The notes beneath the pieces were generated by a model. The model saw only the letters and a list, made by a program, of their open reading frames with translations. It did no database searches and was not told where the DNA came from. Below are positions 14,364 through 60,789 of a DNA stretch of 64,000 nucleotides, piece by piece. Numbering within the stretch: position 1 is the first letter of the stretch; every line of letters begins with the position of its first letter. The DNA comes from a virus, in the IMG/VR virus record IMGVR_UViG_3300012147_000007, positions 1 through 64,000 of that record, one strand, 5' to 3'. A program made the translations under genes and the position numbers.

Positions 14364-15104
14364 TTAATCTAATTTTTCTAATTTCTTTAATATCTTAGGA
14401 TTGAACTCATCGACCCTATCATTTCCAAACCTAATTGAAAGTCCGTCCTCTCTTGTGTTCTTAATGACAAAACCTTTTAGTCCTATAAATGCACCATATT
14501 CTACTCGGTCATCTCTATCCATTTTCTTTTCATCAAGCATAACCCAATCATTCCTCTTTACTTCTTCAAGAATATTGTCAGTCTTTACTGTATGCCTGAA
14601 CTTTCCTTTGAAATACTCCAGCATCACATGAATTCTATCACTATGAAGGTATCCAAGTTCTCCAACCTGCTCAGAATCTGGCATCTCACGACCCCATGGT
14701 TCTCCAGTCAACATAACACTCGAACAAACAGAAGTTGTAGGTCTAACGTAATGCCACCCATCTCTATGAGGCATATCATAATACATGCTACCTTGTGATA
14801 TAATCGTAGAGAATACCTCTGGTTCTTCAAGACCTTCTCCGAATCCTACACCCATTTCATATTCTCCTTCAAGCACATGAATAGCGCTTGGCCAAGGGTG
14901 AGGATGAAACAAAGACTCCCCTGCAGCGCAAGGATGAATAAAGTGTAAAAACAATCTATGATTTCCCAGTTGACACCAAAGCCTTTCAACGTGTGGTGGA
15001 TGGTAATTTACATCTACTGATTTCCATATAGAAGCGTCACACAAAAGGTCATACAATTTAACTCTTTCAATCTGTTGTAGTTTTTCTATAAAAGTCCTTT
15101 CCAT
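14364..15104 (-). CDS. Cupin-domain protein with C-terminal extension
   Basis: Cupin beta-barrel with a metal-type motif: HPHPWPSAIHVLEGEYEMG, then the second-strand HRDGWHYVRPTT. Phage cupins are often iron-dependent oxygenases or isomerases, but the substrate cannot be read. The C-terminal third (IGLKGFVIKNTREDGLSIRF) resembles a small SH3-like barrel. I place the start at 15104 because the promoter -7 element occupies 15114-15121, giving an almost leaderless mRNA. A second cupin-like protein lies at 42.4 kb. Confidence 0.65.
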   Translation of the reverse strand: MERTFIEKLQQIERVKLYDLLCDASIWKSVDVNYHPPHVERLWCQLGNHRLFLHFIHPCAAGESLFHPHPWPSAIHVLEGEYEMGVGFGEGLEEPEVFSTIISQGSMYYDMPHRDGWHYVRPTTSVCSSVMLTGEPWGREMPDSEQVGELGYLHSDRIHVMLEYFKGKFRHTVKTDNILEEVKRNDWVMLDEKKMDRDDRVEYGAFIGLKGFVIKNTREDGLSIRFGNDRVDEFNPKILKKLEKLD

Positions 15105-15113
15105 ATCTAATAG

Positions 15114-15145
15114 CAAAAGTATGGAATGTTTGAATGAATACCAAA
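15114..15145 (-). promoter_or_regulatory. Bacteroidota-type promoter
   Basis: Minus strand TTTG, exactly 20 nt (containing AAACATTCC), TACTTTTG. The expected start of transcription lies next to the ATG at 15104, suggesting a leaderless message. Confidence 0.75.
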
Positions 15146-15154
15146 AATATAAAC

Positions 15155-15163
15155 CTATTTATA
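15155..15163 (+). promoter_or_regulatory. Putative late-promoter motif CTATTTATA
   Basis: Plus-strand CTATTTATA 15 bases before the ATG at 15179. Its position argues that the gene starts at 15179 and not at the in-frame ATG at 15134. Confidence 0.45.
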
Positions 15164-15178
15164 AGAAACTTTTTTATA

Positions 15179-16690
15179 ATGGACAATATTGAACTTGAAA
15201 ATGAAATAGAACTAAGGATGAATCCTCACGACTTTTCCTTATCTACAGGGGGCTTAATAGATATAATGAATGAATACGATTTATCTGAGCATGATGTAGC
15301 CTTTGTTTATAGTAAAATAGTAGAAAGAAAAAGAGAAGAACTTGTAGATACCTCAAAAGATGTTATCAAATATTTTAGAGATAAAGGAAATCACTACCCT
15401 TCATTTAATGAGTTCAAAACAGTTTTTAAACAATACGGTCCTACTTTTGTAGACGACAAAATTCTAAGAGATATGCACAGGAGAGAAACACGAGATTCAA
15501 ACCAAATTTCAATGTTTGAAATCAGAAAAATGATTAGAGAAGGGCTTGGTTCTATGTGGAGCGAGTTTGACCCAGAAGAATTTGAAGGTGATGCAAAAAA
15601 AGCTGCAATGCAAGACATTGGAGACGAATTTGAAGAGCTTGGCACTACTAAGTACGAAAAAGGTATGGACAAAGATGAGTTCATAGGAAACCTTGACAGA
15701 GTTAAGTTAAATTTACCAAGCGATGAAGAAGAGTTCGAAAGAATCTCCAGCATGATGAAAAAGAAAAAAAGCCATGAGGACCTATTTGGAGCAGGTACAT
15801 TGAATGAGGAAGGGATTGGTCAACAAGGTTTATTTAAACCACAAGACTCTCAAGGAAATGACATAAACCTTAAAGCTCTTGTCACAAACTTGGAAGGGAC
15901 AAAGAAAGGTCGTGTGCTTGGATTTGGAGATGATGGACAAGGAAACCAAACTATAAGAGTAAGCTGGGCATGGCCTATGGATATGAAATTCACAGCACCA
16001 GAAGAAATGGGAGACAAAGTAGAAATGGCAGCCGACCTTATTGTTCAAGGAATGAACGAGAACAATGGAGAAGCTGGAAGAAACAACTTAAGAGCCGTTG
16101 AAGTTACTTATGTTGACGGCACAGTTATACCAACATCAATGGCTGCTCATCTATCAGACGAAGACATTAAAGCCTATTTTGAACCAGGTAAACTATTTAA
16201 CATCGGAAGTGTTGAAGATAATATGCAAGCAGTACAATCAATAAATATAATAAGAGAAGATATGGACAACTTAAATGAAAATGAAGAAGTGGTTATGGCC
16301 ACTGGAATGCTAAACAAAGCGCTTATGGACTTTCACAACGCAGGAGGAAGCAAAGAGTCTGCACAACAACAGCTTGATTCTGTTTTTGTTGGCTCAGACA
16401 GCGAATGGTCTACTCATGTAGATGCTATGAAATCAAAATACCCCGACATGTACCAAGATGGTATTGAGGAAGCGAGAGGTCTTGGTCATGGAGTTAAAAA
16501 TTCAGGAGATAGAAATGTTAAAAGAAGTAATGATAATTCTCACGCTCCAGTAACAACTCTTCCAGAAGGTAGAACTCTTGATTCTAAAATCAAAACTTTA
16601 TCAGAAAGCGCTCCTACAAAGAAGGACCTTTTAAACTTCATTAGCGAACAAGCAACAAAGCTTGCTAAAGATATTAGAGAAGGTAAATAA
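15179..16690 (+). CDS. Virion-type protein with internal IRKMIRE tag, about 503 aa
   Basis: First gene of a four-gene plus-strand cluster. Acidic, helix-rich, no enzyme motif. About 110 residues from the start it contains MFEIRKMIREGLGSMWSE, the same amphipathic element that opens many other proteins here, and it ends with LLNFISEQATKLAKDIREGK. Such elements resemble capsid-targeting or protease-processed regions, so a structural or scaffold-related role is possible. The upstream late-type motif supports late expression. TAA stop. Confidence 0.6.
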   Translation: MDNIELENEIELRMNPHDFSLSTGGLIDIMNEYDLSEHDVAFVYSKIVERKREELVDTSKDVIKYFRDKGNHYPSFNEFKTVFKQYGPTFVDDKILRDMHRRETRDSNQISMFEIRKMIREGLGSMWSEFDPEEFEGDAKKAAMQDIGDEFEELGTTKYEKGMDKDEFIGNLDRVKLNLPSDEEEFERISSMMKKKKSHEDLFGAGTLNEEGIGQQGLFKPQDSQGNDINLKALVTNLEGTKKGRVLGFGDDGQGNQTIRVSWAWPMDMKFTAPEEMGDKVEMAADLIVQGMNENNGEAGRNNLRAVEVTYVDGTVIPTSMAAHLSDEDIKAYFEPGKLFNIGSVEDNMQAVQSINIIREDMDNLNENEEVVMATGMLNKALMDFHNAGGSKESAQQQLDSVFVGSDSEWSTHVDAMKSKYPDMYQDGIEEARGLGHGVKNSGDRNVKRSNDNSHAPVTTLPEGRTLDSKIKTLSESAPTKKDLLNFISEQATKLAKDIREGK

Positions 16691-16698
16691 ATTAAATA

Positions 16699-17405
16699 TG
16701 AATTTAGTAGAACAGCTGGCTAAAATATTAAAACCAATACTATCTGAAGAATTGGAACCAGAGGGCGCTTCATACAAATCTACTCTTAATAGAATATCTG
16801 AATTGTCAGATGAGATTAATGATTTGATTGACGAATCGGATGACCTACCTTCTTGGATTCAAGATAAGATTACAATAGCAAATCACAATATGGATGCTAT
16901 TCTTGGTTATTTTAAATCTCAAGAACTTGACGAAGAGTCAAAAGGTCTTTGGGCAAATATTCACGCCAAGAGAAAAAGAGGAGAATCTCCTGCTAAAAAA
17001 GGAGAAAAAGATTATCCAGATAAAAAATCATGGGACAAAGCTTCTAAGTCAGAATCTCTTTCAGAAGAAGAATATAATGAAGCATGTTCAATAATGGAAA
17101 GAGTATCTTTCATGTCTGAAGGAGATAAGTTCGGCTTTAAAGAGATTGATGCTCCAGAATTAAATGAAGCTGAATACCAAGGTAGAAAAGTTGAGCTGGG
17201 AAAACCTACAGCAGGTGATGTCAAAAAATTTAAAGTATACGTTAAGAATGATAAAGGAAACGTAGTTAAAGTAAACTTTGGACAAAAGGGTGTTAGAATT
17301 AAAAAAAATAACCCAGAAAGAAGAAAGTCATTTAGAGCAAGACACAACTGTGAAAACCCAGGACCAAGATGGAAGCCGAGATATTGGTCTTGTAAAAAAT
17401 GGTAA
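16699..17405 (+). CDS. Virion-type protein with N-terminal tag and basic C-terminus
   Basis: Starts eight bases after the previous stop. The N-terminus MNLVEQLAKILKPILSEE fits the tag pattern with an ILSE cleavage-like site. The middle is helical and acidic. The C-terminal SFRARHNCENPGP...YWSCKKW is a Cys/Trp/Arg motif I associate with phage hypothetical proteins of head-linked clusters, though its function is unknown. The next gene begins one base after the stop, so they are translationally coupled. Confidence 0.65.
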
Positions 17406-17406
17406 A

Positions 17407-17739
17407 ATGAAAAAAGTAATCTGCAAAAATTGTGATTGGAAATGGGATATAGAAAAGGATGACAAAAACCCTTACTTATGTCACAAATGTGGGTACGATA
17501 ATAAGAAAGATAAATTTGACTACAAAGCTCTTAATAAATGGAAGAGTGATAATGGAATCAAAGAATATATAATAGACATCAGAAAAATAATACAGGAAGA
17601 ATTTGAAAAAATTTTTAAAATTGATTATCCATACCATAAAATCGAAAAGCTAGTAGATTATTATAAGGAAGAGTTTGATGATTATATGGATAAACAAGGG
17701 TGGAATATATTTCAATCCGATTCACCTTCGCTTTTATGA
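17407..17739 (+). CDS. Zinc-ribbon protein with IRKIIQEE tag, 110 aa
   Basis: Starts ATG at 17407 one base after the previous stop. N-terminal four-cysteine zinc ribbon: CKNCDWKWDIE...CHKCGYDN. It is followed by YIIDIRKIIQEEFEKIF, an internal copy of the amphipathic tag seen at the N-termini of other genes. A zinc ribbon with this tag suggests a virion-associated nucleic-acid or protein-binding role. It overlaps the next ORF by 65 bases, so a frameshift between them cannot be excluded. TGA stop. Confidence 0.65.
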   Translation: MKKVICKNCDWKWDIEKDDKNPYLCHKCGYDNKKDKFDYKALNKWKSDNGIKEYIIDIRKIIQEEFEKIFKIDYPYHKIEKLVDYYKEEFDDYMDKQGWNIFQSDSPSLL

Positions 17740-21646: not shown

Positions 21647-21817
21647 TTACCAGCAGTTTATCTCACGATAAAATTTTTCGAAATTTTTCATTTCTTGTAT
21701 TGTGTAGCCGTATCTCTTTCTATTATGCTCTAAAGACTTCTTAATATCACCATCTTTATTCCTTAAAGTTGATGCCTTCCAATCAACAAGCATTTCAATT
21801 CTATCAAGTGGTTGCAT
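21647..21817 (-). CDS. Small conserved-type protein, 56 aa
   Basis: Starts ATG at 21817 overlapping the end of the upstream gene. It contains DRIEMLVDWKASTLRNKDGD and KKSLEHNRKRYGYTIQEM, a pattern I recognise from small phage and bacterial hypothetical proteins. TAA stop. Function unknown. Confidence 0.6.
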   Translation of the reverse strand: MQPLDRIEMLVDWKASTLRNKDGDIKKSLEHNRKRYGYTIQEMKNFEKFYREINCW

Positions 21818-22280
21818 TTCCTTTAGCAATAAGTACATCAGCAGGAGTCCATACAGCAACCATGTCAACACCTATTTTCTTACGTTTTCCAGTTTTAATA
21901 GTCTTACCATCAGAAGTAACTTTCACTACGTCTCTTGTTTCAGTGTATCCAGTATTATACTTAATAGAAGCATCTGTATTCTCGCTTGCAGCGATGAAGT
22001 TAATTGCCTCTGGGTTATAAGTTGTTTCATCTGTGTTTACAGGGATTCCATTATCAGCAGCCCATTTTACAACGATATTCCAGTCACCATCTCTAATAAC
22101 GGTAGCACATGTCATACCTCTTGCATTTTGAGGGTCTTGCTTAACAGATGGTGGAGCCATGAATTGGTCCTCACCTAATGAACGTCCACATGAGTATATA
22201 ATCTCAGCTGTGTAGTCATTACCTAATCTTGATAACTGTTCGTTAGCTCCTGCAAGCCATGCTGGACCATAATCACCCAA
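21804..22280 (-). CDS. Fragment of a substrate-binding-protein-like domain
   Basis: Contains YSCGRSLGEDQFMAPPS, VIRDGDWNIVVKWAADNGIP, DETTYNPEAINFIAA and VDMVAVWTPADVLIAKGNA, which recall the middle section of larger bacterial proteins annotated as ABC-transporter-substrate-binding/OmpA. Only about 158 residues are present and the N-terminus lacks an ATG; a TTG at 22280 is the best start. It may be a domain captured by the phage or a decayed remnant. TGA stop. Confidence 0.55.
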   Translation of the reverse strand: MGDYGPAWLAGANEQLSRLGNDYTAEIIYSCGRSLGEDQFMAPPSVKQDPQNARGMTCATVIRDGDWNIVVKWAADNGIPVNTDETTYNPEAINFIAASENTDASIKYNTGYTETRDVVKVTSDGKTIKTGKRKKIGVDMVAVWTPADVLIAKGNATT

Positions 22281-30222: not shown

Positions 30223-30837
30223 TTAAAAATCTTTTTCTTGTGGGAACTCGTGAGGGCCATCGCTAACGCTAATATTCAAGGAGTGTCCTCCAGTTTTTTC
30301 TTTAGGAAACTCTCTTGGTTGACCTGGTTTCAAACCATTGCCTCCAATTGACATATCAATTTCTTCAATATCATCTCTGTTAATACCACCTTCGTTTGCT
30401 GCGAGATAATCAGCAGTTCCTTGAAAGGTTTTAATTCCATATCTATTGTCAATTCCATGCTCTTTTATGAACCAACCTTTTGGAACTCTCATGGATGCTT
30501 CTGCAGCAAATCCTGGTATTGGATACCAATCTCCTTGAGTTTTGGAGCCCGTACCTTTCATAGAACTGTAAAACAATACAACCGTGCCGTCTGGGTATCC
30601 TACTTCAGCAAGAGCTCTTCCACTTCTTTCTCCAGTAGATAAAACTTGCAAACCTGCAATATTGTCTGAATAGTTATTATCAAGCTTTGCGCCTGTTGAT
30701 TTTAACTCAGCCAACTTATCATATATCTTTATAGGTGGAAAGTCGTAATTCTTGTCGTTAGTCGTGTGTCCTTCATTCATGACTACGAATATAGAACTTT
30801 TTTTTAACTCTTCTCTTATTATTTTTCTAATATCCAT
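30223..30837 (-). CDS. Tagged virion-type protein, 204 aa
   Basis: Starts MDIRKIIREELKKSSIFVVM then NEG; the amphipathic tag ends with VMNE, like a prohead-protease site. The remainder has YPDGTVVLFYSSMKGTGSKT and a Gly/Pro-rich tail with HSLNISVSDGPHEFPQEKDF. Fourth and last gene of a tandem block of four tagged genes; its ATG overlaps the upstream TGA. Probably a capsid-internal or ejected protein. TAA stop. Confidence 0.65.
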   Translation of the reverse strand: MDIRKIIREELKKSSIFVVMNEGHTTNDKNYDFPPIKIYDKLAELKSTGAKLDNNYSDNIAGLQVLSTGERSGRALAEVGYPDGTVVLFYSSMKGTGSKTQGDWYPIPGFAAEASMRVPKGWFIKEHGIDNRYGIKTFQGTADYLAANEGGINRDDIEEIDMSIGGNGLKPGQPREFPKEKTGGHSLNISVSDGPHEFPQEKDF

Positions 30838-31841
30838 CATAACAACCAATCTGCATTAGGATTATAACTTATTAAGTCTCCGTTGAAGTACTTCTTAAGC
30901 ATCTCTTCGTGATTAACCTTAGGAATATCTGGCATTGCCATTTGTTGACCTTGCATTCTAATGTATTCTTCTCTTAATTTTTGGTAACTTGCGCTTCCTG
31001 GACCAATCCAAGACTTAGCTTCTTTGCACCAAAAAAGTTTATCATCAGCTATTCCAAAATGCTCAACCATGGTTCTATGACACTTGCTTTTAGTTTCAGA
31101 AAGGTCAACATGCTCCGCTATTCTAAAGTTTGTATTAAACAAAGTATTAAAACTCTTAAGTAAATCATTCACTCTTCTATAGGTGTGATTTTCCATATTA
31201 AAGCTCTCGCCTTCAAGAAGGACTGACTCTTGGTCTATTTGAATTTGGTTTCTATGATTTAACTTTATATCCTTTGGTTTCACTTCACAAAACAAATACA
31301 TCATAAGAGATGTGTGAACTGATTCATAAAACTGCTCCTTACCAGAAGGTTTTCCACTCCTATCAAGAAGTCTGTTTTTTTTGATTGCGTAACCCATTGT
31401 CTTCTTTTCAAGTTGGGTCATATTGTCTTGCATTGGATATGTGGTCCTACTCGCTCTCACTGGAAGTCTGTCAATATTATCAACTCCTATGTCATGAAGG
31501 GTTGCTGCTTTTCCGCCAACTCTAAATGAAGAATCTTCAGCTTGAGAGCTCTCAATCACGCTTTCACTCTTCGGGTCGTATGAATTGTAGGTATTTATAA
31601 TTGACTTAACATTCATTTCTGGAATGCCGAGAAACTTTGATGCACCTTTGATGTTTGACTCAGTAATAGACTTTGGGTCAACCTCACAAAGTTCTTGTAG
31701 GTAATATTTTTGATTTGTGTTAAAATCCCACTTTAAGTGGTTGAAAGTTGTAGGTACAGGAACTGAAGCATAACCCTTATAATAAGATTCGCTCAACACG
31801 GTCTTTTGAACCTCTTCCCTTATTAGCTTTCTTATATCCAT
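30837..31841 (-). CDS. Tagged virion-type protein, 334 aa
   Basis: Starts MDIRKLIREEVQKTVLSES with a VLSE cleavage-like site. The middle contains an HD-like or transferase-like region (LHDIGVDNIDRLPVRASRTT; VHTSLMMYLFCEVKPKD), but no catalytic motif is certain. The C-terminal stretch has HRTMVEHFGIADDKLFWCKE. Third of four tandem tagged genes. It could be a packaged enzyme or internal head protein. TGA stop. Confidence 0.65.
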   Translation of the reverse strand: MDIRKLIREEVQKTVLSESYYKGYASVPVPTTFNHLKWDFNTNQKYYLQELCEVDPKSITESNIKGASKFLGIPEMNVKSIINTYNSYDPKSESVIESSQAEDSSFRVGGKAATLHDIGVDNIDRLPVRASRTTYPMQDNMTQLEKKTMGYAIKKNRLLDRSGKPSGKEQFYESVHTSLMMYLFCEVKPKDIKLNHRNQIQIDQESVLLEGESFNMENHTYRRVNDLLKSFNTLFNTNFRIAEHVDLSETKSKCHRTMVEHFGIADDKLFWCKEAKSWIGPGSASYQKLREEYIRMQGQQMAMPDIPKVNHEEMLKKYFNGDLISYNPNADWLL

Positions 31842-31843
31842 TA

Positions 31844-32455
31844 TTATTCACCAACACTTATTGTAAATAAGGTTCCAGTTGGAGTATCCATTGTTGGAGT
31901 ATCTACAATCTTTTCAGCAACCTCATTGATTCCTCCAAGAATATCTAAAAGAGACTGCTTAGCTCTTATGTCGCTTACATACTTTGCAGTACCCATTAAG
32001 TCCTGCTTAATTTCGTCATCAATTTCAGCAGCTTCGTAATCACCACTTTCAAAATCATCAAGACCTTTTCCTACTCTTATGTATTTTAGATTGTCGTTAA
32101 TGTAGTTTTCTATAACATCACCATCAAGTTCCCAATCGCCTAAATCAACATCAGGCATTCCGTCTTCATCATATCCATTAAAAGCCTCCTCTCTATCTGC
32201 ATATTCTGCATAATCATCATTATCTTCTAACTCAGTGTTGTAGACATAAAGTCTTCCTTTTTTATCTTTTACAATTGCAAAACCAGCATTACCTGCATAC
32301 CAGATTACTTCAAAGCTTATTTCGCTTGCAGTATTTCCCTTTCTTGTGTTGTCAGTTTGGTTCCATGGTGCAGATGAATCGTACTGAGCTCCTGCTGGAT
32401 AGTTCTCATTTAGAGCTTTCCTAATTTCTTGTTGTATAATTTTCTTAATATCCAT
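31844..32455 (-). CDS. Tagged virion-type protein, 203 aa, very acidic
   Basis: Starts MDIKKIIQQEIRKALNENYP with an ALNE site. After the tag comes a beta-rich, strongly acidic domain (EDNDDYAEYADREEAFNGYD; DLGDWELDGDVIENYIND). Acidic cargo is common among packaged phage proteins. Two bases separate it from the next gene. TAA stop. Confidence 0.65.
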   Translation of the reverse strand: MDIKKIIQQEIRKALNENYPAGAQYDSSAPWNQTDNTRKGNTASEISFEVIWYAGNAGFAIVKDKKGRLYVYNTELEDNDDYAEYADREEAFNGYDEDGMPDVDLGDWELDGDVIENYINDNLKYIRVGKGLDDFESGDYEAAEIDDEIKQDLMGTAKYVSDIRAKQSLLDILGGINEVAEKIVDTPTMDTPTGTLFTISVGE

Positions 32456-32457
32456 GT

Positions 32458-32799
32458 TTAATCAATGTTAACTTCCCCAAGTCTTTTAGCCACTTCTGAC
32501 TTAACTTCTGGAGATGATGTTTTAAAATAACTTTGTACTGCTTCGTTTATGTGCTTCAATGCCTCGCTTAGATGTTTGTCAACTTCTGGGTTTGTTCCAG
32601 ACAAACCTAATTGCTCTTTAACTTTTTTCGATGAACCCTGAATATCTTGCATGAATGATAGACCAGCTGAAACTTGGGCCTCAAAAGCCTCATAGTCCTG
32701 ACGGTCATGATACTGCCTTTCTTCTGCAGCATAGTCATAATCCTCACTAATAAATTTAGCTATTTCTTCTGATACTATTTTTCTAAGATTTTTTTCCAT
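32458..32799 (-). CDS. Tagged virion-type protein, 113 aa
   Basis: Starts MEKNLRKIVSEEIAKFISED with an FISE site. The rest is helical: AQVSAGLSFMQDIQGSSKKV and LGLSGTNPEVDKHLSEALKH. First of the four tandem tagged genes; a CTATTTATATT motif 12-21 bases upstream suggests late transcription of the whole block. TAA stop. Confidence 0.65.
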   Translation of the reverse strand: MEKNLRKIVSEEIAKFISEDYDYAAEERQYHDRQDYEAFEAQVSAGLSFMQDIQGSSKKVKEQLGLSGTNPEVDKHLSEALKHINEAVQSYFKTSSPEVKSEVAKRLGEVNID

Positions 32800-32811
32800 A
32801 ATCAAGCTTTA

Positions 32812-32821
32812 ATATAAATAG
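32812..32821 (-). promoter_or_regulatory. Putative late-promoter motif CTATTTATA
   Basis: Minus-strand TCCTATTTATATTAAAGC upstream of the tagged four-gene block. It lies beside the palindrome ATAGGATAAAAAATCCTAT, which may end the preceding transcript. Confidence 0.45.
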
Positions 32822-43855: not shown

Positions 43856-43865
43856 GTATGTTTTG

Positions 43866-43937
43866 TGGTCCATATCGGGCTCGAACCGACAACCTGCGGG
43901 GTTAGAATCCGCTGCTCTACCATTGAGCTAATAGACC
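43866..43937 (-). tRNA. Amber-decoding tRNA (CTA)
   Basis: Acceptor GGTCTAT/ATGGACC, D arm GCTC-AATGGTA-GAGC, T arm GTCGG/CCGAT with TTCGAGC, A73. Anticodon arm GCGGA-TTCTAAC-CCCGC gives CTA, which reads TAG. The arm differs from the tRNA-Trp(CCA) arm at 34.4 kb by little more than the anticodon base, but the rest of the body differs, so the amino acid is uncertain. Confidence 0.88.
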
Positions 43938-48135: not shown

Positions 48136-48849
48136 ATGGGAAATATAGGGATTTACAAAATTACAAACAAATTAAATAAAAAAATATACATAGGAAGTTC
48201 TATGAATATAAAAGCAAGAATATCTAAACACAAATCGCAATTAAGAAATAACAAACACAAAAACAGTCATCTACAAAACTCATGGAATAAATACGGAGAA
48301 GATAATTTTAAATTTGAAGTCGTAGAAACTGTTGATAGTTTTGAGTTACTATTAGAAAGAGAGCAATTCTATTTAGATAACACAAAAAACAAATATAACA
48401 TACTTAGCAAAGCATACGCAAGTTATGGCTACAAGCACTCTGAAAAAACAAAAAAACTTTTAAGCGAGCTTGGAAAGATGAAAACTGGAGATAAAAACCC
48501 ATTTTATGGCAAAACTCCTTCAAAAGAATCAATAGAAATAATTAGAAATATAGGAAAATCTCAAACTGGAGATAAAAACCCATTTTATGGCAAGCACCAC
48601 ACCAAGGAGTCTAAAGAAAAAATGTCAAATTCTCTTAAAGGAAGAAAAATGCCTGAATCATTTTTAGATAAACAAAAAGGAAACACAAGGGGAGCTAAAG
48701 AATTTTCAGTCACAACACCAAGCGGTACTATGTTTACTATTGTAAATTTAACAAAATTTTGCAAAGAAAACGACCTTAACCCAAGAAACGCAATTGCAGC
48801 TGTAGCTGCTGATAGAAAATACAAGGGATATTATTTTAAGAGAATTTAG
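48136..48849 (+). CDS. GIY-YIG homing endonuclease with NUMOD3 repeats, 237 aa
   Basis: MGNIGIYKITNKLNKKIYIG opens with GIY and YIG, then SSMNIKARISKHKSQLRNNK and the Glu in REQFYLDNTKNKYN. The C-terminus has two perfect NUMOD3-type copies (TGDKNPFYGKTPSKESIEII and TGDKNPFYGKHHTKESKEKM) plus a helix-turn-helix. I-TevI-like architecture. TAG stop; only seven codons would follow by readthrough. Convergent with the macro gene. Confidence 0.93.
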   Translation: MGNIGIYKITNKLNKKIYIGSSMNIKARISKHKSQLRNNKHKNSHLQNSWNKYGEDNFKFEVVETVDSFELLLEREQFYLDNTKNKYNILSKAYASYGYKHSEKTKKLLSELGKMKTGDKNPFYGKTPSKESIEIIRNIGKSQTGDKNPFYGKHHTKESKEKMSNSLKGRKMPESFLDKQKGNTRGAKEFSVTTPSGTMFTIVNLTKFCKENDLNPRNAIAAVAADRKYKGYYFKRI

Positions 48850-49327
48850 ATTTATATTTTTCTATATTTTTAAAGTCATTTTCCCACACCACAATAGTCA
48901 CATCTTCATTAAGTAGTTCTTCTGATATTATTTTTTCTATAACATAAAAATCACCACCCGCAAGCCCAGAGCCTATAAGAGGTAAGCCAATTTTCTTTCC
49001 AGAAAATTCAGACTTCATCGCTTTCATACACCCTCTAATTGCATCATAATCAGCATTTATGTTTCTACCTTTGTAGTCCCACTGAGTGTACATGTTTAGA
49101 ATTGTGATATTATCATTAGACCATTGAGTATAAGTTCCAAGCTTACCTTTATCTGCAAAAGCAGAAGCTTTATCTGCAGAATAAGCCTGTGGATACTTTC
49201 GCTTGACTGTAAGGGCGATACCCGCTCCAAAAACACAATAACAATTACAGCCATGTGCTATTACGTCAAAATCTCTTTCCGCATCTCTTACAAGGTCTCC
49301 TTTTGTATATTTAATTTCATGCTCCAT
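48836..49327 (-). CDS. Macro-domain protein, 163 aa
   Basis: MEHEIKYTKGDLVRDAERDF, then DVIAHGCNCYCVFGAGIALT is the macro-domain ADP-ribose-binding signature (HGCNC...G.G.A), followed by KIGLPLIGSGLAGGDFYVIE. Macro domains bind or remove ADP-ribose; in phage they may counter host ADP-ribosylation defences. The start at 49327 is chosen over the hydrophobic upstream extension, which overlaps a terminator. TAA stop. Confidence 0.85.
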   Translation of the reverse strand: MEHEIKYTKGDLVRDAERDFDVIAHGCNCYCVFGAGIALTVKRKYPQAYSADKASAFADKGKLGTYTQWSNDNITILNMYTQWDYKGRNINADYDAIRGCMKAMKSEFSGKKIGLPLIGSGLAGGDFYVIEKIISEELLNEDVTIVVWENDFKNIEKYKSKFS

Positions 49328-49342
49328 AAGCACAAATGTAAA

Positions 49343-49375
49343 CAAAAAAAAGCGAATCATCTAATAATTCGCTTT
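49343..49375 (-). terminator. Rho-independent terminator
   Basis: Minus strand AAAGCGAATTATTAGATGAT, then TCGCTT and T8. It ends the 49.4-kb gene. Confidence 0.85.
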
Positions 49376-55181: not shown

Positions 55182-55529
55182 CTAAACTCCTAAATTTGAA
55201 TAAAATTGATGATTTTCTTTCAAATTGTTGATAACTATTTCTGCTATGTCGAGAATATTAAAGAGACTTCTCTTTGCTTTTTCCACATAAATACCTTTAA
55301 CAAATTCCTCCATTGGAAATCCGTATAGGTCATTGTTTTCAGAAACTTCATCCCAATTCATCAAATAATCTTCTTTAGTGTCTATTTCCTCTGGAAGCCT
55401 TACGATGTCATCTTTCTTGTGATAAGGAAAACTATTGTGACCACCAACTACCGAATGAGATGGGTGTTCCTGCTGCATCGCCTCATGCAACGCTCGCCTT
55501 ATTTCTTCTCTTATTTCTTTTTCTTCCAT
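55182..55529 (-). CDS. Tagged protein, 115 aa
   Basis: N-terminus MEEKEIREEIRRALHEAMQQ fits the amphipathic tag with an ALHE cleavage-like site. Then SHSVVGGHNSFPYHKKDDIV, DEVSENNDLYGFPMEEFVKG and IAEIVINNLKENHQFYSNLG. Upstream motif CATATTTATATAGG fits late expression. Ends TAG; readthrough would add eight residues. Possible capsid cargo. Confidence 0.55.
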   Translation of the reverse strand: MEEKEIREEIRRALHEAMQQEHPSHSVVGGHNSFPYHKKDDIVRLPEEIDTKEDYLMNWDEVSENNDLYGFPMEEFVKGIYVEKAKRSLFNILDIAEIVINNLKENHQFYSNLGV

Positions 55530-55534
55530 TACCT

Positions 55535-55544
55535 ATATAAATAT
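55535..55544 (-). promoter_or_regulatory. Putative late-promoter motif
   Basis: Minus-strand CATATTTATATAGGTAATG immediately before the tagged gene at 55529. Confidence 0.4.
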
Positions 55545-57047: not shown

Positions 57048-57476
57048 TTATTTTTCCCCTGGAGCAAGGTCAGTGTGAGAGTTGTCTCCTATCCCGTGCT
57101 TGCGCTTGAAGTTGCTAAGTATTTTTATAAGAAATGATGTTGGCCTACCTTGAGTTTCGCCATTAGGCCTAAGGTTATCTAAGTGTTTCATTGTCCACTT
57201 ATTCGGTCTTCCATCTGGAAGTATGTATTGTTCATTATTATGATACCATCTTTGACCATCCCATACATACAAAGGATGTTGTTCTCCATAAGAATACGCT
57301 GCATACATTTGACCAAGGTCTCCCAAATCTTCACCATAAGTGTGTGAGCCAACGAAGTTTTGTCTATTCGCAACTTCCTCTGCAGCATCTTTATTGGAAA
57401 TTCTTTCTTCCTTATAAAGTTCTTCTTTGAAAACTTTCGAAAACTCTTCGTTTACTATGTCTGTAAGCTTTTTCAT
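57048..57476 (-). CDS. Tagged protein, 142 aa
   Basis: N-terminus MKKLTDIVNEEFSKVFKEEL fits the amphipathic tag. The mature part has SHTYGEDLGDLGQMYAAYSY and DGQRWYHNNEQYILPDGRPN, a Tyr/Gly-rich beta domain. CTATTTATATT lies upstream. Probably a virion-associated protein. TAA stop. Confidence 0.6.
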   Translation of the reverse strand: MKKLTDIVNEEFSKVFKEELYKEERISNKDAAEEVANRQNFVGSHTYGEDLGDLGQMYAAYSYGEQHPLYVWDGQRWYHNNEQYILPDGRPNKWTMKHLDNLRPNGETQGRPTSFLIKILSNFKRKHGIGDNSHTDLAPGEK

Positions 57477-57490
57477 ACAAAAATCATTTA

Positions 57491-57500
57491 ATATAAATAG
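57491..57500 (-). promoter_or_regulatory. Putative late-promoter motif CTATTTATA
   Basis: Minus-strand GACTATTTATATTAAATG, about 20 bases before the tagged gene start at 57476. Confidence 0.45.
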
Positions 57501-59388: not shown

Positions 59389-60789
59389 ATGAACAAAGAC
59401 GTTAAAAAAATAATTTCAGAAGCATTCAATGAACTATATAAAGATTTGATTTCTGAAGCAGAAGCTGGTATGAATCCTGCAGACAAAGCAGCAGCAGATA
59501 AAATGATTGCAAGAGTTAAAACTTATGGAGATGCAAGTGGGTTCTCAAACAATGGAGCAAACACAAAGCAGAATGATGTTTTTAACTACATATTAGATGC
59601 GCTTATTTCTGAATACAAAAGTACAGAAGACCAAAATACTAAGCAAAAAATTAAAAATGGTATCCAGGGAGCTTTTTTCCCAGCAATGAATGCAGATGGA
59701 AGACCCAACAAGACATTAAATGTACTTATGGGAAAATGGCCAGGAAAAGATAGAGATGCAGTTCAAGATGCTGCAGCTTCAGCGTATGAATCATTCATGA
59801 AAAACTTTGATGGGTTTATAGACAAATACACACCTGGAGCTGGAAGTAGTTTTGGTGGAATTGTTTTAAACAACTTGAATTCTAAAATGTATGATGTAAT
59901 TCAAAAAGGATTTAGAGGAAAAGGCCTTGGTGGAACTCAGGATACTTATTCAAGAGCTGGAAACAGCATGGGCTCTATGGATGACCCTTATGGAGACGAT
60001 AGCACACTTGGAGCGACAATGGCTGACCCAAACTCATTAGGAGCAGACAATGACACTGAAGCATCAATATCGGAAGACCAAGATTTATTGGCAATCGTTA
60101 ATGGATGGCTTAAGAATAATGTTTCAGAAAAACAATACATCGCCTTTAGAGAACTTACAAAAGGATTTACTCCAAATGAAGTTGCTGAAGATTTCCCAGA
60201 GCATTTTGGAATTGGTAAAGATGTTTCAAGAAATTTCGCACAATTACTTTCGAGAAAAGAAAAAGATGAAGATGGAAACACTGCCCTTACGCTTGACAGA
60301 CTTAGCGACATGCTTTCTTATGCAAAGAAAAGAGATATTGACTTGAAAAACATAGTTCTTAAAAATCTTAGACAAACTATCTCTCAAGACCCAAGCTTCT
60401 CTGGGGATGGAAAACGTTCTTACGTATCTTCTCCTGAAACAAAAGCGGCTCTTAAAGATTTGAGCGATTCAATGTATGAACTTGGTCCAGATGTTTTAAG
60501 CAAACTTGGAGTTAAAGATAAAATTGATTTCCAAAATGGAGCTCAAATTTCAAAAATTATAAACAAACTTACTGTCCTTGGATTGGAAAGTGAGGTTCGT
60601 GATATTGAAGATGCTTGGGCTGATGTTAAAAGAACAAGAGATGCCTCAGCTGATTATGGTAAAGTAACTAACTATGCCGACAAAGTAGATGAAAGCGGTA
60701 TCGCAGGAATGTTTGAAGGACTTGATGTCTATGATGGTTTCGATATAGAAATTCTTATGAACAGAGTTATGCAAAGATTATCAAAATAA
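59389..60789 (+). CDS. Sigma-70-like protein with N-terminal capsid-type tag, 466 aa
   Basis: Residues 1-22 are the amphipathic tag ending in LISE (MNKDVKKIISEAFNELYKDL, ISEAEAG). A region-2-like segment follows around 125-160: DAVQDAAASAYESFMKNFDG, FIDKYTPGAGSSFGG. A region-4-like helix-turn-helix is near 245-290: SEKQYIAFRELTKGFTPNEV, GKDVSRNFAQLL. The C-terminal part is helical. The order fits an ECF-type sigma factor. With the tag it may be packaged and injected, or direct late transcription. TAA stop, then terminator. Confidence 0.6.
   Translation: MNKDVKKIISEAFNELYKDLISEAEAGMNPADKAAADKMIARVKTYGDASGFSNNGANTKQNDVFNYILDALISEYKSTEDQNTKQKIKNGIQGAFFPAMNADGRPNKTLNVLMGKWPGKDRDAVQDAAASAYESFMKNFDGFIDKYTPGAGSSFGGIVLNNLNSKMYDVIQKGFRGKGLGGTQDTYSRAGNSMGSMDDPYGDDSTLGATMADPNSLGADNDTEASISEDQDLLAIVNGWLKNNVSEKQYIAFRELTKGFTPNEVAEDFPEHFGIGKDVSRNFAQLLSRKEKDEDGNTALTLDRLSDMLSYAKKRDIDLKNIVLKNLRQTISQDPSFSGDGKRSYVSSPETKAALKDLSDSMYELGPDVLSKLGVKDKIDFQNGAQISKIINKLTVLGLESEVRDIEDAWADVKRTRDASADYGKVTNYADKVDESGIAGMFEGLDVYDGFDIEILMNRVMQRLSK

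Follow-up and report, generated by a model that had tools for sequence, protein, structure and literature searches.

A short N-terminal tag on unrelated proteins of an aquatic phage, probably a head-loading signal of the T4 kind

Why should proteins with unrelated bodies open with the same short segment? The question is raised by four tandem genes in the first 64,000 bases ("the window") of the 117,229-base virus record IMGVR_UViG_3300012147_000007. All four lie on the minus strand, between positions 30223 and 32799, and their products begin with MDIRKIIREE-like tags that end in VMNE, VLSE, ALNE or FISE, as the initial annotation of this DNA had described. It had also placed further tags at the starts of four scattered genes and inside two other proteins, and all of these were confirmed (Table 1). 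Its statement that the bodies are unrelated agrees with an all-against-all blastp of 18 bodies, which returned a single marginal match (E=0.045). A search for the tag elsewhere in the genome raised the count, so that in this aquatic phage one short tag heads about 19 mostly unrelated proteins. These are distributed over the window, the rest of the record and a near-identical record of 195,333 bases, G001, which matches the window exactly at 8 of 8 60-base probes in reversed orientation. Beyond the window, the 117-kb record has tagged genes at 66961, 67617, 97281 and 98112, and G001 adds a second, five-gene tandem array (120330-124272), and two more genes, at 174694 and, less clearly, at 134738.

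In order to judge whether the likeness exceeds chance, we used a nine-column profile trained on 17 cores from tag-like genes of other phages, located in the head-gene neighborhood of a gp21-type protease. At a score of at least 12, a cut chosen after the table had been seen, the profile matched 9 of 269 open reading frame (ORF) N-termini in G001 vs 2 of 1060 internal 40-residue segments (p=2e-5; mean of 0.35 for shuffled N-termini). At a score of at least 10 the counts were 11/269 and 9/1060 (p=0.0006). One of the two internal matches at the higher cut is the copy within the 15179 protein. When two bare tags were compared with phage records by tblastn, one reached four records (best E 0.08) and the other none. 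The tags differ from one another in synonymous codons (by eye), and therefore their likeness is kept at the protein level. The same differences bear on the idea that a single DNA segment was recently copied to give the tags, through duplication of 5' gene ends and without a common function. Although the array members are adjacent and have similar opening codons, the DNA upstream of the tags is unlike (by eye) save for the box described below, and orthologues retain the tag, which also heads many unlike proteins; we regard this explanation as refuted in the main and give it almost no credence.

The way in which the tags end is more informative about their possible function. The prohead protease gp21 of T4 is established to cleave after L/I-X-E (PMC9026906). 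Among 18 tagged proteins picked by eye, a relaxed form of this site, [LIVMF]xE ending at residues 10-27, is present in all 18 (shuffle mean 11.8; 0 of 2000 shuffles reach 18), and strict [LI]xE is present in 15, vs 52 of 251 other ORFs (shuffle mean 7.35; 1 of 2000 reaches 15); the close fit to a gp21-type site noticed in the initial annotation thus holds for most tags in its strict form and for every one in its relaxed form. If N-termini are selected by the core profile alone (score of at least 9), [LIVMF]xE occurs within the next 20 residues in 12 of 14, vs 76 of 241 background windows. Capsid proteins of related phages (16, from 19 loci tried) carry MLNE/V, MLQE/V, LLDE/A, LVKE/A or similar sites, where the slash marks the predicted cut. 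In an alignment of 11 of these relatives with T4 gp23, the Glu of this site falls on gp23 residue 65 at the end of GSFLTE/A, which we take to be the cut position. The tag ends VMNE, ALNE, VLSE, VLNE and VFNE have the same form as the capsid site of the relatives. Additionally, orthologues of the 97281 and 98112 proteins (10 and 13 distinct N-termini, respectively) have an invariant Glu at P1, a variable P2 and a hydrophobic P3, a pattern that a protease site predicts. By eye, many tags have hydrophobic residues at the positions that correspond to T4 targeting residues 4 and 7 (P7 and P4), but a general motif fitted to these positions is enriched only weakly (see below), so that a likeness of the targeting half to T4 is at most tentative.

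Does the phage have a head into which such proteins could be loaded? Its portal matches PHROG 213 (E 6.5e-73) and its terminase matches large-subunit families; with a T4-type portal and terminase, it is a T4-type phage. A portal search returned 62 loci. Of the 12 records searched for Peptidase_S77, the gp21 family, three belong to this phage; the four that have it (G003, G005, G010 and G011) are all relatives. The capsid protein of G010 resembles T4-type capsid proteins. The G010 protease and capsid protein match 2513 and 2502 phage records, every one below 60% identity, with Microcystis phage Mel-JY01 and Flavobacterium phage immuto as the best matches. The parts read of these two genomes contain some L-x-E openings, as well as a similar helix in Mel-JY01 gene 21704-22168 (IVQEVVREVIAE), and no IRKIIREE core. 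A tag-like segment begins the gene immediately before the protease in G010 (MSEKELRDFIRESLSE), G011 (MSEEELRNLISESLKE) and G005 (MKITKEQLKNFINEN), and all three have more tag-like genes farther upstream and near the portal. Many of the 33 protease loci read out of 80 (one of them being G010) have tag-like openings beside the protease.

In T4 it is genes 67 and 68 that immediately precede gene 21, and this shared position favors an explanation in which the main role of the tagged proteins is that of prohead core components, as with gp67 and gp68: they would join the core, be cut up and leave, instead of being delivered as effectors. The 98112 family, in which the tag and an Ala/Pro/Gln-rich stretch are kept across relatives, would also suit a structural role. 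However, a scaffold has no need for what the second array of G001 encodes: an ADP-ribosyltransferase (ART-PolyVal, 8.7e-13), a GP88 domain (1.3e-21) and a HELAH metalloprotease-like motif recognized by eye. Of the four array genes, two were searched for relatives: 30837 was found only in G001, and hence in the same phage, and 31844 in G001 and one other contig, which is unlike core proteins. We therefore consider a predominantly core-building role unlikely.

Tagged and structural genes also share an upstream element. The sequence TATTTATA was first seen upstream of several tagged genes and then tested in the form TATTTAT(A/T), at most 55 nt before the start, on transcription-unit leaders, defined as genes that follow a gap of at least 25 nt. 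It precedes 8 of 8 tagged leaders, 8 of 8 structural leaders, from a set of 13 structural genes hand-picked by position and family matches, and 28 of 141 other leaders (p=6e-6 for tagged vs other; for the tagged group the test is post hoc). The other 11 tagged genes and 5 structural genes, located within units or behind short gaps, have no box. The 28 other leaders are mostly homing-endonuclease-like (by eye), and one of them heads the unit of the tagged gene 174694. The box lies mostly 5-35 nt ahead of the ATG in G001 and its relatives, where it precedes 18 of 53 genes in G010, 19 of 64 in G011 and 22 of 61 in G005; scaffold-like, capsid and tagged genes have it in all three, and terminase, portal and protease genes in two each. 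T4 has TATAAATA before genes 18, 19, 20 and 22 (4 of 8 checked). The box resembles the T4 late promoter without being equal to it in sequence, and because of this difference its late-promoter function is one that we infer; we therefore refer to TATTTAT(A/T) as a candidate late-promoter box.

The tag is not peculiar to this phage, since many contigs elsewhere carry it. A DNA pattern for I-R-K-I-I-R-E-E-like peptides matched 110 IMG/VR stretches vs 12 for a reversed control. The placement is N-terminal in 76 of 112 pattern matches, with redundancy kept in (an ATG, or else another start codon, at most 15 codons upstream, and the first possible start within 40). After crude de-duplication, 30 complete tagged proteins remained, one of them from this phage; the other 29 have little in common except the tag, although a few pairs are still alike, and they include two lysozymes and one nucleoside-deoxyribosyltransferase-like protein, the rest being without a match at 0.001. 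A T4-type capsid gene is present on 15 of 20 tag contigs vs 1 of 8 controls (p=0.004). The tag contigs, of at least 60 kb and with a match at most 15 codons past a start codon, were drawn from 80 matches listed and include near-duplicates as well as three that would fail the N-terminus rule; the controls, of at least 54 kb, comprise five contigs with other matches and three with the reversed pattern.

This co-occurrence argues against the helix being a sorting or docking signal for a target outside the head, for example the replication compartment, a membrane or a partner protein. An amphipathic N-terminal helix does not by itself reveal its partner, and the two tagged lysozymes would fit such a destination; the head-module context, the match to the capsid cut site and the box held in common with structural genes nevertheless point to the head, and we find a non-head target very improbable.

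The system that invites comparison is that of the T4 internal proteins (IPs). IPI, IPII and IPIII likewise have a short shared N-terminal segment on unrelated proteins, ending in hydrophobic-x-Glu (IPII and IPIII start with MKTYQEFIAE/A), and the leader is the only thing that Ip1-3, which are injected and block restriction, have in common (PMC12373910). The likeness extends to the T4-type portal and terminase of this phage, to the gp21-type protease, scaffold-like gene and capsid protein of its relatives, and to one cargo, the ADP-ribosyltransferase, which is of the same class as Alt of T4. Alt, too, carries an N-terminal propeptide. It is packaged and ejected (PMC9026906). In contrast to T4, the tags here have an IRKIIREE-type core instead of MKTYQEFIAE, with predicted cuts at residues 13-25; the tagged genes number about 19, some of them arranged in tandem, as opposed to three IPs and Alt (T4 relatives together have at least 10 IPs; PMC12373910); some tag-like stretches are internal, and most of the cargo has no known family. 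The likeness to the T4 capsid-targeting tag thus lies in the shared segment and the (L/I)-x-E end, and not in the tag sequence of T4 itself. The tag system is most likely a variant of the T4 capsid-targeting system, present in many viral contigs that are often T4-type, and searches of open-access text listed no paper on an IRKIIREE-type tag.

Virion data are available for the cyanophage S-CREM2, whose virion proteome comprises 52 proteins (PMC10665884). The motif [FYL]xxF[LIMF]xE occurs in the first 30 residues of 6 of these 52 vs 1 of 167 other proteins (p=0.0008). Among the six are enzymes that mass spectrometry detected in the virion and that carry a tag with L-x-E, namely a SAM hydrolase, a kinase, a Cas9-like nuclease and a cytidylyltransferase (L299-L302), the difference being that the S-CREM2 tag has the T4 form (MKxFxxFLxE). 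No remark on such tags was found when the text of that paper was searched for targeting, N-terminal and internal protein. The S-CREM2 result supports the principle in aquatic T4-type phages and not the IRKIIREE-type tag itself. Agrobacterium phage Atu_ph07, a jumbo phage with T4-like head genes, has adjacent genes with a common short N-terminus, MRWEQLTE-like, that ends mostly in L-T-E or L-N-E. Its bodies differ from those described here in sharing a YRGM stretch (by eye), and the array may therefore be plain duplication; we treat it as a parallel only. The array is located at L303:39484-49507, and one of its genes also has a Zeta-toxin-like kinase domain (1.5e-14).

Several points weigh against reading the tags as head-loading signals. 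For this phage, the case for head loading comes from sequence and not from virion proteomics. The search for Peptidase_S77 was negative in G000, G001 and G006, with a portal identical to that of this phage (a first-look candidate from G000 and another from G001 did not pass scoring), as well as in five further relatives; all may be fragments. The gp21-like protease for which the initial annotation had suggested a search was thus found in neither record of this phage, both of which are incomplete. The capsid gene of the phage was not found either, and both genes lie outside the known sequence; G000 and G001 break off at the same place, not many genes away from the terminase. Peptidase_S77 on tag contigs falls short of significance (10 of 20 vs 1 of 8 controls, p=0.077), and at some protease loci, such as L211, L212 and L217, the gene just before the protease is not tag-like. 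The training cores of the profile were chosen by eye as tag-like, so that their sequences are independent of this phage and the choice was not blind. The top internal profile match, in the 48836-49360 protein, indicates that such stretches arise elsewhere too. The general motif fitted to the spacing of the T4 targeting positions, hxxh[LIMFV]xE, shows weak enrichment in this phage, at 34 of 269 N-termini vs 111 of 1571 internal segments (odds ratio 1.9; shuffled mean 20.7), and is not significant in S-CREM2 (9 of 52 virion vs 14 of 167 other proteins, p=0.062). The strict T4 motif [FYL]xxF[LIMF]xE matches two G001 ORFs, neither of them a tagged gene. The S-CREM2 motif was derived from T4 but fixed after the N-termini had been seen, and the authors of that study allow for co-purification of some proteins (PMC10665884).

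Tags on unrelated bodies, T4-type head genes, a cut site of the same form and a shared upstream box nevertheless combine to make it likely, in our judgment, that the tags are capsid-targeting propeptides which load proteins into a T4-type head and are cut by a gp21-type protease, some of the bodies then being ejected. The initial interpretation is thus supported in part. Its loading signal and prohead-protease cut draw good, though indirect, support from the portal and terminase of this phage, the protease and capsid protein of its relatives, the constant P1 Glu in two families, the tagged genes in head modules and the virion tags of S-CREM2, whereas virion presence, cleavage and injection are predictions for this phage. 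The short N-terminal segment, an amphipathic helix by its pattern, would bind the prohead core, and each tagged protein would in this way be built into the head. A gp21-type prohead protease would then cut behind the Glu that closes the last hydrophobic-x-E, releasing the body within the head. At least some bodies may later be ejected with the DNA into the next cell and act there as effectors. Swapping of bodies behind one loading signal would allow a quick change of cargo.

The cargo itself is mostly unfamiliar. None of the tagged bodies in the window reaches a Pfam cut-off, and the 16699 body matches PHROGs of unknown function. The second array of G001 also has a ParB-like DGHHR stretch (by eye). 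The 59389 protein has an identical copy in three records; by eye it appeared sigma-factor-like, an assignment that was dropped for lack of support in Pfam, PHROGs, NCBIfam and PDB sequences. Structure prediction without an alignment gave a mean pLDDT of 40.8 for the product of 59389-60789 and 33.0 for that of 30223-30837. The 31844 body has a 42%-identical relative, L068:7980-8648, that has no N-terminal tag but has tagged genes nearby. That relative contains a tag-like VRMIVRDVISE/S in its C-terminal half.

Table 1. Tagged genes and associated elements in the window; a slash marks the predicted cut.
Feature	Position	Strand	Tag or stretch	Remarks
Tagged gene 4 of array	30223-30837	-	30772-30837, MDIRKIIREELKKSSIFVVMNE/G	predicted cut after E22 (VMNE/G); no family known for body
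Tagged gene 3 of array	30837-31841	-	31788-31841, MDIRKLIREEVQKTVLSE/S	predicted cut after E18 (VLSE/S); no family known for body
Tagged gene 2 of array	31844-32455	-	32405-32455, MDIKKIIQQEIRKALNE/N	predicted cut after E17 (ALNE/N)
Tagged gene 1, array leader	32458-32799	-	32743-32799, MEKNLRKIVSEEIAKFISE/D	predicted cut after E19 (FISE/D)
Candidate late-promoter box of array	32814-32821	-	TATTTATA	14 nt ahead of ATG
Tagged gene	16699-17405	+	16699-16749, MNLVEQLAKILKPILSE	ILSE/E
Tagged gene	55182-55529	-	55482-55529, MEEKEIREEIRRALHE	ALHE/A; box 55537-55544
Tagged gene	57048-57476	-	57423-57476, MKKLTDIVNEEFSKVFKE	VFKE/E; box 57493-57500
Tagged gene	59389-60789	+	59389-59457, MNKDVKKIISEAFNELYKDLISE	LISE/A; box 59353-59360
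Gene with internal tag-like stretch	15179-16690	+	15512-15565, MFEIRKMIREGLGSMWSE	box 15156-15163, because of which the 15179 start is favored
Gene with internal tag-like stretch	17407-17739	+	17569-17616, IIDIRKIIQEEFEKIF	stretch follows Cys-rich, zinc-finger-like segment (by eye)

Two further observations concern other genes. The window contains 29 tRNA genes, one of which (43865-43937) is of the Pyl type with anticodon cta according to ARAGORN and could be an amber suppressor. Two patatin-like proteins, with GGGxKGAxxGG and GGASKGAFTGG stretches, are encoded beside the terminase at L004:13341-14279 and 15026-16066 (by eye).

The proteins that environmental phages carry into cells are mostly unknown, because few of these phages have been grown. 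If the tag marks head cargo, a genome sequence would yield a list of candidate injected proteins. Those internal proteins of T4 that have been studied to date block host restriction systems (PMC12373910), and such lists are therefore a likely source of new anti-defense proteins. More tentatively, and at somewhat less than even chances, the IRKIIREE-type helix may be a code for head loading that is widespread among uncultured T4-type phages, readable from sequence as a list of injected proteins. The large, fast-changing cargo arrays, with ADP-ribosyltransferases, protease-like proteins and other enzymes, would then form an exchangeable injected arsenal greater than that of T4, and internal tags would give rise to composite cargo. 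In these phages the tag could, in addition, be put to use as a loading handle.

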